In this document: positions 18,350-26,006 of the stretch, piece after piece
Position numbering within the stretch: position 1 is the stretch's first letter
Layout of the letters: every line of letters starts with the position of its first letter
NCBI GenBank assembly: GCA_016939365.1
Contig: JAFGHD010000132.1
Span: 1-47,846 of the forward strand
DNA from: Bacteroidales bacterium
GTDB taxonomy: Bacteria; Bacteroidota; Bacteroidia; Bacteroidales; JAFGHD01
Length of the DNA stretch: 47,846 bases
Reading direction: 5' to 3'
Translations under genes and position numbers: made by a program
The notes under the pieces: generated by a model
The model's database searches: none
Seen by the model: only the letters and a program-made list of their open reading frames with translations
What the model was told of the DNA's origin: nothing

Positions 18350-19816
18350 ATGAAAACACAAGGAACCGATCATTATGTGGAGGCCGCCCGCCGGTCTGCA
18401 GAATGGCACCGGAGTCATCTGGAAGCCATGAGAAAATGCCGCTTTGATACAATAGCGGTACATGGAGTGTATTCCATGCAGGAATCACTGGATTTCAACC
18501 AGGGCTCCATCATCGAACCTATCTACATGTCTACTTCGCAGGCTTACAGGGATGCTGACGAAATGGAGGCCGCACTCGGATACCAGATTCCGACATGGTG
18601 TTACTCACGGATTGGCAATCCATCCATGTATTACCTGGAAGGGACGTTGGCGTTGCTTGAAACCTACGGGACAGGCCTGGATGCCACCTGCTGTGCCACC
18701 TCATCGGGTATGGCAGCCATCCAGAGTGCCGTAGACCCCTTTCTGGTGGTCGATCCTGCCAATCCGGACCAACGGATCAATTTTGTTGCAACCAGCCAGG
18801 TCTATGGTGGTACATTTCAGCAGTTTGCCATCCGGAAAGACCAGGAGAAGTATATTGAATGGCGCAAGATCAGGAATTCAAACGACCTGAATGAGTGGGT
18901 ATCCCTTATCGATGAGAACACGCGGTTTCTGTATGGTGAGATGCCCAGCAATCCGGGACAGGCTTTCTTTGATCTTGAGAAGGTGATCGAACTGGCCCAC
19001 CGTAAGGGTATTCCCATGATCGTCGATGCCACTGTCGCTACTCCCGCACTGATGAGGCCGCTGGCATGGGGTGCCGATATCGTCATTCATTCCATTTCCA
19101 AAACGGTCACTTCATCAGGTTTCGGCATCGGGGGGGCGGTCATCGCAAGGAAGCACCTGGTGTCAAAGGTTGGTAGCGATGAGATGAAGACGGATTTCGG
19201 GACCTATATCAAGCTGCTGCCCAACCGGGACAACGGTCCGAATATATCCCCCTTCAACGCGATCATGGCACTGAACGATCTGCGTACACTGCGCTCAAAG
19301 GTGGATCAGTTCAGCCGCTCCACCATGAAAGTGGCCCAATACCTCCGGCAGCACAGACATGTGGAGCAGGTGGACTATTTAGGCCTGGATTCTCACCCGC
19401 TTCATCCCCTCGCGAAAAAATACCTGGTACTTGTGGATTCAGAGGCCGATGAGCTGTACGGCAAACCGGTCAACAGATTCGGCCATTTGATGTCCTTCCG
19501 TGTGAAAGGCGGCGGTGAAGCGGCCCGCAAGGTGTTTGACGGATTCAATATGATCTGGAGAGCCACCGACCTGGGAAGGATCAAGTCTGTGGCGACAATA
19601 CCGGCCATTTCCACGCACTCCCAGCAGGGTGAAGAGGGCCGCAAACTGGCTGATATACCTCCCAGCCTCATCAGGCTTTGCGTGGGTGGTGAGCATTCTG
19701 ACGACATCATCCGGGATCTGGAAAGAGGTTTTGCTGCCCTCGATGGAAAGGTTATCCCTGTCTCATCCCCGGAGTATTCCGCAGGTGGCGCTTCATCAGC
19801 CACATTGAAAAGGTAA
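18350..19816 (+). CDS. Cys/Met metabolism PLP-dependent enzyme (O-acetylhomoserine sulfhydrylase / cystathionine gamma-synthase type)
   Basis: A 488-residue fold-type I PLP enzyme of the gamma-family. Motifs: YSRIGNPSMYYLE (phosphate and neighbour-subunit contacts), SSGMAAIQ, SQVYGGTF (stacking tyrosine), IVDATVATP (aspartate that binds the pyridine nitrogen) and the Schiff-base lysine in SISKTVTSSG (Lys251). It is about 50-60 residues longer than usual, mostly by an N-terminal extension. The family makes homocysteine or cystathionine from activated homoserine, or degrades methionine. The next gene, 28 bp later, encodes homoserine dehydrogenase, which supports a role in homoserine-derived sulfur amino-acid synthesis. 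The exact reaction cannot be fixed from sequence. Confidence 0.85.
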   Translation: MKTQGTDHYVEAARRSAEWHRSHLEAMRKCRFDTIAVHGVYSMQESLDFNQGSIIEPIYMSTSQAYRDADEMEAALGYQIPTWCYSRIGNPSMYYLEGTLALLETYGTGLDATCCATSSGMAAIQSAVDPFLVVDPANPDQRINFVATSQVYGGTFQQFAIRKDQEKYIEWRKIRNSNDLNEWVSLIDENTRFLYGEMPSNPGQAFFDLEKVIELAHRKGIPMIVDATVATPALMRPLAWGADIVIHSISKTVTSSGFGIGGAVIARKHLVSKVGSDEMKTDFGTYIKLLPNRDNGPNISPFNAIMALNDLRTLRSKVDQFSRSTMKVAQYLRQHRHVEQVDYLGLDSHPLHPLAKKYLVLVDSEADELYGKPVNRFGHLMSFRVKGGGEAARKVFDGFNMIWRATDLGRIKSVATIPAISTHSQQGEEGRKLADIPPSLIRLCVGGEHSDDIIRDLERGFAALDGKVIPVSSPEYSAGGASSATLKR

Positions 19817-19844: not shown

Positions 19845-20894
19845 ATGAAACATAAAATCGGTATTATAGGATTCGGTACTGTAGGCCGCGGACTCACAGA
19901 AATATTGATCAACAAGCGCGACTACCTGAGGAGAAAGTATGGATATAAGTTCGATATCATCGCGGTGGCGGATTTTAAATTCGGCAACGTTTACAACCCC
20001 AAGGGACTGGATGTTCAGCACATGCTGGACATGGCACAGGCCGGAAAGAAATTCACAAGGGACCTGGTTGACTGGGACAACACCAGGCTGATCCGCAAGG
20101 CGAATGCCACCGTGTGGTGTGAGCTTACCTTTACGGACCTTCAGACCGGTGGCCCTGCCATCGAACATGTGATCACAGCCCTGGAAGCAGGCAAGCATGT
20201 GGTCACAAGCAACAAGGGACCTGCCGCATTGCACTATCCCCGTCTGAAAAAGCTGGCCGACAAAAGAGGGGTTGAATTCATGATTGAGGGAACCGTTGTG
20301 GCGGGAACACCTGTGATCAATCTCGCAACAGGTCCCATGGCAGGTTGCACCATCAACGGGATCAGAGGCATCCTGAACGGTACGACCAACTATATGCTCA
20401 CGGAAATGGAAAAGGGCATGGCTTACAAGGATGTGCTGAAGATCGCCCAGGAAAAAGGCTATGCCGAGGCCGACCCAACAGGCGATGTCGAGGGCTTTGA
20501 TGCGCGCGCAAAGGTGACCATCCTGGCCAACATCGTAATGGATGCAGGTATAGGGATCGAAGAGGTGTCATGCGAGGGGATTACGAAGATCACTCCCGCA
20601 GATATCGAACAGGCAAGAAAGCAGAACAAAAGGTGGAAACTGATCGGTTCGGTGGTCAGAAGGGGTGACAGGGTGGAAGCTTTCGTGAAACCGGAGATGA
20701 TCGACCTGTCGCATCCGCTTGCAGGAGTGATGGGGGCCACCAACGCACTTACCTTCGCCACAGACCTGCTGGGCGATGTCACCATCGTCGGGCCCGGTGC
20801 CGGAAAAACCGAAACAGGCTTCGCCATATTGACGGATCTGCTTGCAATCCACAGAAAAAGAGCACAGCACAAAAAGAGTGGCCGGAAAGCATAG
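19845..20894 (+). CDS. hom: Homoserine dehydrogenase, stand-alone type without ACT domain
   Basis: The 349-residue protein starts with a Rossmann motif (GFGTVG, residues 9-14). It has the NKGPAALHYPRL segment with the conserved lysine, the homoserine dehydrogenase signature ILNGTTNYMLTEM and the catalytic block ADPTGDVEGFDARAK. There is no fused aspartokinase and no C-terminal ACT domain, so feedback control by threonine through that domain is not expected. It reduces aspartate semialdehyde to homoserine, the branch point to methionine and threonine. It is downstream of a gamma-family PLP enzyme and upstream of DapA-like and ThrB-like genes, after a 437-bp gap. Confidence 0.92.
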   Translation: MKHKIGIIGFGTVGRGLTEILINKRDYLRRKYGYKFDIIAVADFKFGNVYNPKGLDVQHMLDMAQAGKKFTRDLVDWDNTRLIRKANATVWCELTFTDLQTGGPAIEHVITALEAGKHVVTSNKGPAALHYPRLKKLADKRGVEFMIEGTVVAGTPVINLATGPMAGCTINGIRGILNGTTNYMLTEMEKGMAYKDVLKIAQEKGYAEADPTGDVEGFDARAKVTILANIVMDAGIGIEEVSCEGITKITPADIEQARKQNKRWKLIGSVVRRGDRVEAFVKPEMIDLSHPLAGVMGATNALTFATDLLGDVTIVGPGAGKTETGFAILTDLLAIHRKRAQHKKSGRKA

Positions 20895-21331
20895 CACCCT
20901 GACAGGGGTATTCCGAACCACCTGCCGGCCCGGGCCTTGTTATACATACCTCTGTTTGACCATCCGGGGATTCACATTACCTGGCCCAGCCAGTCAGTAA
21001 GCGCGCGGTTACGTAAACAGTTTTGATGTCCTTGCCTGTCGGCAGCACATCCGGGGTATCAAAAGGGAACCATATAACCTTTATGGATGGAACGGTTCCG
21101 TTTTGGACCCATGGAATGGCTCTGGGGGGAGCTCACCTGCCGGATATACGATCCCATCACGAAACAGAACCCACCGGCCCTTTCATTGCCGTTCCTGCCG
21201 GTTAGCTTGTCCACGTGGTGACAGAATCACGGCTGATTCAGATCATTTGCGTAAAGTATGCAGGACTGCAGGGACATTTTTTATGTTGCGTCACACATTC
21301 AAATTGTTGACCTTTGCAAAAAACAAATAAA
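20895..21331. other. 437-bp gap inside the amino-acid cluster
   Basis: No convincing gene. A ten-base palindrome GGCCCGGGCC (20927-20936) followed by TTGTT may act as a weak terminator after hom. A short + strand frame (21023-21205) has coding-like composition but no recognisable domain and no homology I can name; it may be a gene remnant. The 3' end carries the promoter of the DapA-like gene. Confidence 0.5.
21286..21316 (+). promoter_or_regulatory. Candidate promoter of the dapA-like/thrB/SDR operon
   Basis: TTG (21286-21288), a 20-bp spacer and GACCTTTG (21309-21316; CCTTTG half of the -7 box well kept) lie 15 bp before the ATG at 21332. The 437-bp gap and this promoter suggest the last three genes of the cluster are a separate transcription unit. 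Confidence 0.4.
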
Positions 21332-22210
21332 ATGAAAAAAGGAGCTTACACATTGTTGGTCACGCCTTTCAGGGATGATTATTCTCTTGATGAAGAAGCC
21401 CTCAGACGTCTGGTAAGAAGGCAGGTGGAATCGGACATTACAGGAATTGCACCCCTCGGAACTACCGGGGAGAACAACCTCCTCACGGATGCAGAGGTGA
21501 AAAGGGTGTTGCAGATTGTCGTGGAGGAGGCTAAAGGGAAGAAGGACATTCTTCCTGACCTTTGTTTGGCCGGCACACAGGCATCCATTGATCGTGCCAG
21601 GATGTATGCCGACCTGGGTGCAGATTACGTGGTGGCTTTTTCGCCCTATATGGTACTTCCTGTTCCCTCAGCGTTGATGAAATATTATGAGCAGTTGGCT
21701 GACGCCTGTCCCGTTCCGGTGGTTCTTCACAGTTCCAAGGGCCGGACAGGAGTGGAACTCACACCGGAAATGACGGCTGCTCTCGCAAAACATCCCAACA
21801 TCGTAGCAACCAAGGATGGCAAGAAGGAGATCGACCACCTGGCCAAGATTGTGTACCTGACACGGAATGACGATTTCCTGGTCTTTACAGGGAAGGATAC
21901 CACCGCCTATCCTACGGTGGCTTTCGGTGGGGATGGCACCTTTACCGTGGTGGGGAATGTGATCCCGGATGTGATGAGCCACATGGTCCGGTTTGCCCTT
22001 GAGGGAAACCACACTGAAGCCCGGAAACTGCATGAGGAGTACTATCCTCTGTTTGAAGCATGCCGTTTTGAGACCAATCCCATGGGTGCCAAGAAGGCCC
22101 TGGAGCTGATGGGACTGATCAGGGGTAATTTGCGGCCACCGGTGATCCCTCTGAGTGAGGGCTGGTCGGAAACGCTGCGGATGATCCTGAAGGAGAGGGG
22201 GTTGATATGA
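21332..22210 (+). CDS. DapA-family (NAL superfamily) Schiff-base aldolase with altered active site
   Basis: The 292-residue protein aligns with E. coli DapA without gaps up to residue 161, so numbering is shared. The Schiff-base lysine (Lys161, in IVATKDG), the GTTGE loop with Thr44-Thr45 and Arg138 (GRTG) are kept. Two tyrosines of the catalytic triad are not: Tyr133 is His133 (VVLHSSKGRTG) and Tyr107 is Met107 (SPYMVLP). It is therefore probably a Schiff-base lyase or synthase acting on a pyruvate-like or other carbonyl substrate, but a true dihydrodipicolinate synthase role is doubtful. ATG 21332 is chosen over the upstream TTG at 21314. Its stop overlaps the thrB start (ATGA), so the two proteins are translationally coupled. 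Confidence 0.88.
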   Translation: MKKGAYTLLVTPFRDDYSLDEEALRRLVRRQVESDITGIAPLGTTGENNLLTDAEVKRVLQIVVEEAKGKKDILPDLCLAGTQASIDRARMYADLGADYVVAFSPYMVLPVPSALMKYYEQLADACPVPVVLHSSKGRTGVELTPEMTAALAKHPNIVATKDGKKEIDHLAKIVYLTRNDDFLVFTGKDTTAYPTVAFGGDGTFTVVGNVIPDVMSHMVRFALEGNHTEARKLHEEYYPLFEACRFETNPMGAKKALELMGLIRGNLRPPVIPLSEGWSETLRMILKERGLI

Positions 22211-23130
22211 AACGGATCAAGGTGCGGGCTCCTGCCACCAGCGCCAATGTCGGACCCGGCTACGATATTTTTGCCCTTGCCCTTGAGGATCCTTTTGATG
22301 AGATCGAGTTACTGGTCAGTGATGAGGGCGGGATTGATATTGACATCGAAAACGATACGCAGGGTATCCCCCGTACCGTTGCGGATAACACGGCCGGGCT
22401 GGCGGTTTCGGAACTCTTCAGACGGAAAGGTATTCACAAAGGGGTCCGCATAAGGATCATCAAGCGAATGTGCTCTGGTGGCGGGCTGGGCACTACGGGC
22501 GCTTCTGCAGCCGGTGCCGTTTCCGGACTGAACACCCTGCTGGAGCTCGGGCTTACTCATAATGAAATGATTGATATTGCCCGGATGGGTGAGGTTGCCT
22601 CGGGTGGTTCACCCCATGCAGATAATGTGGCAGCTGCCATCATGGGCGGATTTATCCTTGTGAAAAGCTACTTCCCGGTGGATGTCCTCAAACTGGAACT
22701 TCCCGATATACCGGTCGTGCTTGCCGCAATCACAAAGAGCCAGAGGACAACCCGCGGTTTCATTACCTATGAGATCGGCCAGGAGAAACTCAAGGAACAA
22801 ATGGCCCGTTGCTCCCGTGTCATCCATGCCATCCATTCGGGGGATCCCACCGAATTCGGCAAAGCCGTCTCGGTAGATTATATCCATGAACCGGTCAGGG
22901 GATCCGCCATACCCGGTTACTGGGAGATCAAAAAGAAGATACTCGATACAGGTGCTTATGGCTGTACAATAAGCGGAGGGGGGTCATCCGTGATTGCTTT
23001 CTGCCCCGAGAACTGCAGGGAAACTGTTGCTGAACTGATGAACCGGGAATTTTCGTCCAATCCGCACTTCATCAGGGTGTATCAGACACGGATCAGCAAC
23101 TCCGGCATCCGGGTGCTGGAGATGGAATGA
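22207..23130 (+). CDS. thrB: Homoserine kinase (GHMP family), archaeal-like variant
   Basis: The 307-residue GHMP kinase begins with the motif 1 VRAPATSANVGPGYD (residues 6-20). The phosphate-binding loop reads GGGLGTTGAS (91-100), whereas typical bacterial ThrB has GLGSSA. It also has GEVASGGSPHADNVAAAIMGGF, close to the homoserine kinase signature, and the GHMP C-terminal motif CTISGGGSSVIAF. The reaction expected is homoserine + ATP to O-phosphohomoserine for threonine synthesis in the cytoplasm. No thrC is in the window. The GLGxxGASA pattern resembles archaeal homoserine kinases from memory. ATGA overlap with the DapA-like gene upstream. Another small-molecule GHMP substrate remains possible. 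Confidence 0.85.
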   Translation: MKRIKVRAPATSANVGPGYDIFALALEDPFDEIELLVSDEGGIDIDIENDTQGIPRTVADNTAGLAVSELFRRKGIHKGVRIRIIKRMCSGGGLGTTGASAAGAVSGLNTLLELGLTHNEMIDIARMGEVASGGSPHADNVAAAIMGGFILVKSYFPVDVLKLELPDIPVVLAAITKSQRTTRGFITYEIGQEKLKEQMARCSRVIHAIHSGDPTEFGKAVSVDYIHEPVRGSAIPGYWEIKKKILDTGAYGCTISGGGSSVIAFCPENCRETVAELMNREFSSNPHFIRVYQTRISNSGIRVLEME

Positions 23131-23162: not shown

Positions 23163-23927
23163 ATGGAAATTTCACTGGAAAGCAGGGGTGTGCTCGTTAC
23201 CGGTGCATCGCGCGGCATCGGCAGGGCCATTGCCAAAGGGATGGCGGGTGCAGGAGCACGGGTGGCCATCCATTACCTCAGAAACCAGAAAATGGCGCAG
23301 GATGTGCTCTCTGATCTTCCGGGTAAAGGGCATATCATGCTGCAGGCCGAAATTGGCGATAAGGAGCAGACCAGGCGATTGGCGGAACAGGCCATCGGAC
23401 GTCTCGGCAGGGTGGATATTCTGGTGAACAATGCCGGCATTTTTCAGGAATATCCTGTTTTGGACCTGAACTATGAGGAGTGGTGCGGGGCATGGGAAAA
23501 GACCATCCGGACCAATCTCAGCGGAGCCGCTCATCTTTCCTTCCTGATGGCGAAACATATGAAGGAAATGGGTGGCGGAAAGATCATCAACATCAGCTCC
23601 CGGGGGGCGTTTCGTGGTGAGCCGGACGCACCTGCCTACGGTGCCAGCAAGGCCGGTCTTAACTCTCTGGGACAGTCCATGGCAAAAGCCTTCGCACCTT
23701 TCGGCATTATGGTTTATACTCTTGCCCCGGGTTTTGTGGACACGGATATGGCGGCATATGCCATGCATGGCGACAGGGCGAAGGAGATCAGAAACCAGAG
23801 CCCCCTTCAACGGATCGCCTCCCCGGAAGAGATTGCCCGAACCGCACTCTTCCTGGCCGGAGAGGGAACCGATTACCTTACCGGCTGTATCCTCGATATC
23901 AACGGGGCTTCATATCTGAGAACCTGA
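23163..23927 (+). CDS. Short-chain dehydrogenase/reductase (FabG-like SDR)
   Basis: A 254-residue classical SDR. It has the cofactor motif TGASRGIGRA, the NNAG motif, the catalytic serine in NISSRGAF and the YGASK tyrosine-lysine pair, followed by LAPGFVDTDM. Length and motifs fit 3-oxoacyl-ACP reductases, but SDRs act on many carbonyls. It starts 32 bp after thrB, so it is probably the third gene of the dapA-like operon. That context makes an amino-acid-pathway substrate as likely as a fatty-acid one. It converges with the serine hydrolase gene, 17 bp apart. Confidence 0.88.
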   Translation: MEISLESRGVLVTGASRGIGRAIAKGMAGAGARVAIHYLRNQKMAQDVLSDLPGKGHIMLQAEIGDKEQTRRLAEQAIGRLGRVDILVNNAGIFQEYPVLDLNYEEWCGAWEKTIRTNLSGAAHLSFLMAKHMKEMGGGKIINISSRGAFRGEPDAPAYGASKAGLNSLGQSMAKAFAPFGIMVYTLAPGFVDTDMAAYAMHGDRAKEIRNQSPLQRIASPEEIARTALFLAGEGTDYLTGCILDINGASYLRT

Positions 23928-25529: not shown

Positions 25530-26006
25530 TCATTCATCCTCAATGGGTAACTGTCTGATGAATCCCACTTCCAATGAAATGAACGTCTCTGTACTGGTGA
25601 TCTCAGGGATCGATTGGATTTTTTCAACCAGTATCTGTTTCAGATGCTCGTTGCTTTTGGCAAAAATTTTTGCCAGCAAAGAGTACTTGCCTGTAATATG
25701 GTGACATTCAATAATTTCAGGCAATTGCTTGATTTTTTTAAACACTTCATCATGGGTGGTGTTGCTGGTAAGATTAACCTGGATGCCCACAAAGGCGCAT
25801 GTGTCAAATCCCAGTTTCGACGGATCGAGATTGAACTGGGAACCGGTGATGACACCATCTTCGGTCATTTTCTGGACGCGTTGATGGACGGCTGCTCCGG
25901 AAACTCCGCAATTCCTGGCGATTTCCAGGAAAGGCATCCTGGCGTTCTTGATCAGGAGGGTAAGTATCCTTCTGTCAAGGCTGTCGAGTTTCAGACGTGT
26001 CTGCAT
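25530..26006 (-). CDS. Lrp/AsnC family transcriptional regulator
   Basis: The 158-residue protein has an N-terminal helix-turn-helix (LDRRILTLLIKNARMPFLEIA, then GVSGAAVHQRVQKM) and a C-terminal RAM effector domain (FVGIQVNLTS, HHITGKYSLLAKI, SIPEITSTETFISLEV). Lrp-like proteins bind DNA as octamers or dimers and sense amino acids or other small metabolites. Given that a homoserine/threonine cluster lies 2 kb away and a peptidase gene nearby, an amino-acid effector is plausible but not shown. Its upstream region (26007-26186) is very AT-rich and includes TATCTTTA, a 7/8 match to the -7 box. Confidence 0.93.
   Translation of the reverse strand: MQTRLKLDSLDRRILTLLIKNARMPFLEIARNCGVSGAAVHQRVQKMTEDGVITGSQFNLDPSKLGFDTCAFVGIQVNLTSNTTHDEVFKKIKQLPEIIECHHITGKYSLLAKIFAKSNEHLKQILVEKIQSIPEITSTETFISLEVGFIRQLPIEDE

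Follow-up and report, generated by a model that had tools for sequence, protein, structure and literature searches.

A clade of DapA-like proteins from Bacteroidales has, judged from its aligned residues, lost the catalytic triad of DapA, and no DapB was found in the genomes that encode it, a pattern that suggests an undescribed way to a cell-wall building block. Diaminopimelate (DAP) synthesis is generally taken to begin with DapA and DapB in all organisms; the two enzymes are drug targets, and they are used to call lysine prototrophy or auxotrophy from genomes. When a clade passes the DapA cut-off without the triad or DapB, yet carries DapD and a DAP-type MurE, the annotation conceals either that the reaction differs or that a partner is missing.

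The stretch of DNA analyzed, hereafter the window, is a 47,846-nucleotide contig of a Bacteroidales bacterium (JAFGHD010000132.1). The features of interest are as follows.

18350..19816, + strand: PLP enzyme of the cystathionine gamma-synthase/OAH-sulfhydrylase family, 488 aa (PF01053; no curated subfamily fits)
19845..20894, + strand: monofunctional homoserine dehydrogenase (NF004912, 426 bits, cut-off 373)
21332..22210, + strand: DapA-like protein, 292 aa (sole PF00701 protein of the genome; TIGR00674; AlphaFold superposition)
21650..21652, + strand: codon of Met107 (Tyr107 in E. coli); Met, Leu or Phe across the clade
21728..21730, + strand: codon of His133, where E. coli DapA has Tyr133; all 13 clade members have His
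21812..21814, + strand: codon of Lys161, the Schiff-base lysine, kept in the alignment
21893..21895, + strand: codon of Lys188 (position 187 of E. coli DapA, there Asp); 13/13 clade members have Lys, 32/32 canonical DapAs Asp or Glu
22064..22066, + strand: codon of Arg245 (position 244 of E. coli DapA, there Phe); 13/13 clade members have Arg, 32/32 canonical DapAs Phe
22207..23130, + strand: GHMP-type homoserine kinase, ThrB (ATGA overlap with the DapA-like gene; NF002288, 268 bits, cut-off 194)
23163..23927, + strand: short-chain dehydrogenase, SDR (after ThrB in five relatives, L002-L006; link uncertain)

The DapA-like protein and its clade

The reading frame is intact from the ATG at 21332 to the stop at 22210 on the forward strand and encodes 292 aa. 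This start is backed by the relatives, whose proteins open with MKKGAYTLL at the equivalent position; a longer frame, called mechanically, would open at the TTG at 21314. The protein scored 201 bits against PF00701 and 213.4 bits against the NCBIfam dapA equivalog TIGR00674, above the cut-off of 206.15, so automatic annotation would name it DapA and hide the difference. Its AlphaFold model (pLDDT 83.8) has the standard DapA fold and superposes on solved dihydrodipicolinate synthases (DHDPS) with Z of 38-39.6 and rmsd of 1.6-1.9. At the Rfam gathering threshold, no riboswitch, for lysine or otherwise, was found in the window or in 13 relatives, and matches in the leader of the DapA-like module were at chance level only.

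The initial annotation had described an alignment with DapA free of gaps up to residue 161, with Lys161, Thr44/Thr45 and Arg138 conserved, His in the place of Tyr133 and Met in that of Tyr107, together with an ATGA overlap with a homoserine kinase gene. All of this was borne out: against E. coli K-12 DapA there are no net gaps up to residue 161, the window protein retains Lys161, Thr44, Thr45, Arg138 and Asn248, the two substitutions lie at codons 21728-21730 and 21650-21652, and the overlap is real and kept in five relatives. A second, canonical dapA was sought in the window genome, a 3.67-Mb draft that is 97.5% complete, and there is none; the DapA-like gene is its lone PF00701 member.

Relatives found by protein similarity came from Bacteroidales and Lentimicrobiaceae metagenome bins. 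In the tree, the DapA-like protein falls in a separate clade of 13 sequences with 100/100 support, on a long stem outside the main Bacteroidales DapA clade, and the members are at least 50% identical to one another. Residue 133 is His in 13/13 members, and residue 107 is Met, Leu or Phe, with Tyr in 0/13. Residue 44 is Val in 12/13, the window protein with its Thr44 being the exception, and residue 203 is Phe in all 13. Four basic residues have been gained and are invariant, namely His133, Lys165, Lys187 and Arg244 (E. coli numbering). The clade-specific changes thus fall at positions 44, 107, 133, 165, 187, 203 and 244, whereas positions 45, 138, 161 and 248 are kept in 13/13 members, Arg138 and Asn248 being invariant.

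A high frequency of His133 and Met107 among proven dihydrodipicolinate synthases had been named as the finding that could overturn the initial annotation; all 32 canonical DapAs compared carry both Tyr107 and Tyr133, and 0/32 lack either. By these counts of aligned residues, with His133 in every clade member and Tyr107 in none, the change at the two tyrosines is not random, and the Thr44-Tyr107-Tyr133 triad is lost in the clade as a whole, though the window protein keeps Thr44.

In published DHDPS structures, Thr45 and Lys161 are assigned to pyruvate; in the E. coli enzyme, the carboxylate of the second substrate is bound by Arg138 and Asn248, and Ile203 contacts the C4 hydroxyl that is formed (PMC11201819). 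The kcat of E. coli DapA is 177-fold lower with Tyr133Phe and 12-fold lower with Tyr107Phe (PMC3188589). The kept and changed positions together imply that the parts holding either pyruvate or the C4 amino acid have been retained, that the parts handling the aldehyde oxygen are replaced, and that the net positive charge has increased. The earlier suggestion of a different reaction with the same Schiff-base lysine is well supported by the clade-wide triad loss and the four invariant basic residues.

Probable diaminopimelate synthesis in genomes without DapB

DapB (PF05173) was sought in the 12 clade genomes reached (G000, G001, G013, G027, G046, G048 and G060-G065; G001 was included via a contig-end fragment, and G067 is apparently the same record as G001) and was found in 0/12. 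In a sample of 60 relatives, in which almost every family is represented by a single genome, DapB was absent from 6/6 clade genomes versus 2/54 others (Fisher p = 5.6e-7, uncorrected for shared ancestry) and was present in the remaining 52. All clade genomes are draft assemblies, which speaks for reading the protein as an ordinary DapA that has drifted, with canonical DapA and DapB merely missing from incomplete metagenome bins. We consider this highly improbable, since the 12 genomes without DapB include several that are at least 94% complete, the 52 genomes with it are of like quality, and the fully supported clade carries conserved, specific substitutions.

The later pathway enzymes were examined with the curated models and, for DapD and Ddh, with chimeric protein queries, which also served in the searches for ThrB, the PLP enzyme and ThrC/MetX/MetA. 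DapD, about 50% identical to the E. coli protein, was found in 9/11 clade genomes searched and not in G046 (89% complete) or G048 (94%). The window genome encodes DapD (NF008808, 346 bits, cut-off 204), DapF (TIGR00652, 191 bits, cut-off 114.65) and a MurE that carries the DNPR motif. These enzymes, the set expected for DAP synthesis by the succinylase branch, imply that L-2,3,4,5-tetrahydrodipicolinate (THDP), the normal product of DapA plus DapB, is still required. The claim that the gene lies outside normal lysine synthesis therefore held in one part only: canonical dapA and DapB are indeed absent, but DapD, DapF and a DNPR-type MurE are present and THDP is still needed. On these gene contents, the DapA-like protein probably remains a supplier of the DAP pathway but catalyzes a different reaction.

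Two other solutions were considered and rejected. DapL or Ddh might have served as the remaining branch; DapL gave no match above its cut-off, and Ddh was not found in 11 clade genomes. Lanthionine or another diamino acid might have replaced DAP with DapF kept, as in Fusobacterium; this does not fit the presence of DapD and of a MurE with DNPR.

No LysA above the curated cut-off was found in any clade genome tested, and the bacteria may thus obtain lysine itself externally or via a LysA-like protein. Such a protein, of 460 aa, scored about 215 bits in the window genome against the LysA cut-off of 297.9 and occurs in most clade genomes as well as a single ordinary relative. It is a possible LysA stand-in or belongs to a separate pathway. 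On contig C124 of the window genome (L096 4280-6720), an ATP-grasp protein is paired with this 460-aa LysA/FslC-like decarboxylase.

The protein could also be a repurposed aldolase acting outside DAP synthesis, for example on pyruvate and formaldehyde or another aldehyde, with THDP drawn from a wholly different source. The aldehyde partner does change among enzymes of the NAL superfamily, the triad loss speaks against the normal substrate, and the missing LysA would fit as well. We nevertheless hold this to be very unlikely: the clade never varies at Arg138 and Asn248, the residues that bind the carboxylate of the C4 amino acid, whereas Arg138 is replaced in HOG aldolase; the protein lies far under the cut-offs of all the curated NanA, KdgD, HpaI and KDG aldolase models; and the loss of DapA and DapB with DapD kept is left unexplained.

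Some genomes depart from the general pattern. G013 is the only clade genome that also keeps a Tyr-bearing DapA (L136 2970-3854), in which Gly43 is changed to Asp; it has no DapB, and the copy is perhaps decaying or altered. Outside the clade, G035 and G045 have DapD and lack both DapB and the module, and G045 lacks DapA too. Judging from these two, the order may harbor a further, non-homologous substitute for DapB.

The homoserine link and a candidate route to THDP

The ThrB that adjoins the DapA-like gene forms a subfamily of its own. Its members are 59-71% identical among the genomes with the DapA-like gene, and the subfamily (at least 59% identity) occurs in 12/12 clade genomes and in 0/54 others searched. 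The ThrBs of other genomes are 30-37% identical to it and mostly lie beside thrC. The DapA-like/ThrB pair is usually accompanied by a homoserine dehydrogenase, whose copies in the other DapA-like genomes are 66-79% identical, and by a cystathionine-synthase-type PLP enzyme. The joint pattern of DapB and this module may stem from one evolutionary event.

E. coli-type ThrC, MetX and MetA were not found in the clade genomes among the matches listed. This absence is full by per-genome counts for G000, G013, G027, G046, G060, G061, G062 and G064; for G001, G048, G063 and G065, it holds among the matches listed, to about E 1e-35. The usual users of activated homoserine are therefore missing from the results. 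Six clade genomes (G001, G013, G046, G048, G060 and G062), but not the window genome, encode a ThrC-like protein with a zinc ribbon.

The protein might still be a 4-hydroxy-tetrahydrodipicolinate synthase that joins pyruvate to aspartate semialdehyde, with His133 as the acid-base, DapB replaced by an unrelated reductase such as the neighboring SDR, and the thrB link reflecting regulation of the aspartate family. The passed dapA cut-off, the retention of Lys161, Thr45, Arg138 and Asn248, the downstream DAP pathway and the module-less genomes without DapB (G035 and G045) all agree with it, as does the position of the SDR after thrB in five relatives. However, the SDR lies away from thrB in L009, L011, G013, G027, G046 and G048, and neither the clade-invariant basic residues 187 and 244 and the loss of Thr44 nor the distinct ThrB subfamily and the missing E. 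coli-type ThrC, MetX and MetA are explained. We regard this reading as rather unlikely.

From the observed sequence changes, gene presence and absence, and linkage, we infer a substrate, product and mechanism in which homoserine leads to THDP without DapB and the DapA-like protein participates directly. We favor this reading tentatively, at somewhat under an even chance. Aspartate semialdehyde would be reduced to homoserine by the homoserine dehydrogenase (19845-20894), and homoserine would be converted by ThrB (22207-23130) to O-phosphohomoserine. The pyruvate enamine on Lys161 would then attack C4 of O-phosphohomoserine, phosphate would leave, and the product would be L-2-amino-6-oxopimelate, the open form of THDP, which would pass to DapD, DapF and MurE. 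The carbon balance would be exact (C4 of O-phosphohomoserine plus C3 of pyruvate gives C7), and the redox balance would close with the reduction of DapB done by homoserine dehydrogenase.

This scheme would account for the residue pattern. Thr45 and Lys161 would hold pyruvate, Arg138 and Asn248 the carboxylate of the C4 amino acid, and the new basic residues the phosphate. With the reduction to homoserine placed before the C-C bond and not after it, DapB would be unnecessary; with no aldehyde, no proton relay would be needed; and a phosphate on the substrate would call for new basic residues. The specific step, in which the DapA-fold enzyme itself joins O-phosphohomoserine to pyruvate by alkylating the enamine with loss of phosphate, with no aldol addition and no need for DapB, is possible but doubtful on the evidence of residues and gene neighbors. 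Its chemical weak point is that we know of no enzyme in which a simple alkyl phosphate serves to alkylate an enamine bound to lysine. A ThrB beside an aspartate-pathway gene could also simply serve threonine, and six clade genomes do have the zinc-ribbon ThrC-like protein.

O-phosphohomoserine is readily activated by PLP enzymes, and this known chemistry would favor the 488-aa PLP enzyme as the catalyst. That enzyme may make, or help make, the C-C bond; in one variant of the homoserine route, it would activate O-phosphohomoserine and form the bond, and the DapA-like protein would supply pyruvate. It was found in 10/11 clade genomes tested (G063 lacks it) and in 0/4 controls, and its gene usually adjoins that of homoserine dehydrogenase. 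It scored 274 bits against the O-acetylhomoserine sulfhydrylase model TIGR01326, below the cut-off of 495. FUB7 was the third best of its solved relatives, but its sequence is no closer to FUB7 than to ordinary sulfhydrylases. Its predicted structure (pLDDT 40.6) was too poor for use.

FUB7 itself accepts other carbon nucleophiles, and its products are piperideine-carboxylates, close analogues of THDP. One could thus propose that the PLP enzyme alone makes the THDP bond by a FUB7-like gamma-substitution of O-phosphohomoserine by pyruvate, with the DapA-like protein acting elsewhere in the same or a neighboring pathway. Its distribution, its closeness to FUB7 among solved structures and the lack, among the matches listed, of the MetX or MetA that would give O-acyl-homoserine are consistent with such a role. 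Yet the tightest gene link joins the DapA-like gene and ThrB rather than the PLP gene, G063 does without the enzyme, the sequence shows no preference for FUB7, and the enzyme may be an O-phosphohomoserine sulfhydrylase for methionine. We judge this division of labor quite unlikely.

Several further genes were observed around the module. Two genomes carry a second DapA-like copy (L007 5001-7120 and L008 5001-7137), which is directly followed by a PLP gene of the methionine/cystathionine gamma-lyase type and not by thrB. An aldehyde:ferredoxin-oxidoreductase-like gene (about 589 aa, recognized by eye from the N-terminus) follows homoserine dehydrogenase in four clade genomes (L006 3184-4953, L169 5985-7754, L171 1467-3221 and L172 4658-6424). 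A gene for an Lrp/AsnC regulator, a possible regulator of the module, lies near it (window 25530-26006, L168 1727-2206, L175 15209-15682 and L004 9035-9508) and stands beside the PLP gene in two genomes.

In the literature covered, which included few subscription journals or preprints, we found no description of THDP formation from O-phosphohomoserine or of the clade. If the proposed step is true, class I aldolase folds would gain a new type of C-C bond formation, and a central step of cell-wall synthesis would have a second solution.

Comparison with known systems

The closest known system is DapA itself (TIGR00674; E. coli DHDPS, 2yxg from M. jannaschii and 1o5k from T. maritima), which the protein resembles in fold, length and the residues Lys161, Thr45, Arg138 and Asn248, and with which it probably shares the first place in DAP synthesis. 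Unlike DapA, the clade lacks the Thr44-Tyr107-Tyr133 triad and has invariant His133, Lys165, Lys187 and Arg244; mean identity is about 30%, there is no DapB partner, and the gene shares an operon with a homoserine kinase.

With HOG aldolase and the other aldolases and dehydratases of the NAL superfamily, the protein shares a pyruvate Schiff base in a TIM barrel, in which a few active-site residues switch the substrate. In HOG aldolase, the Tyr equivalent to Tyr133 is kept and Asn stands where DapA has Arg138 (PMC3188589). From these sibling families the DapA-like protein is set apart by scores far below their curated cut-offs.

The partner gene is like ThrB of the GHMP type in scoring above the homoserine kinase cut-off. 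It differs in forming its own subfamily, whose members occur solely alongside the DapA-like gene, in genomes where E. coli-type thrC is not among the listed matches. The proposed step, for its part, would be analogous to that of FUB7-type PLP enzymes, in which an activated homoserine and a carbon nucleophile give a piperideine carboxylate, and the 488-aa enzyme belongs to the same broad family. However, the DapA-like protein does not belong to the PLP enzymes, and the 488-aa enzyme shows no special closeness to FUB7. Taken together, the DapA-like protein belongs to the NAL/DapA superfamily but lacks two features that define DapA as a function, namely the triad and a DapB partner.
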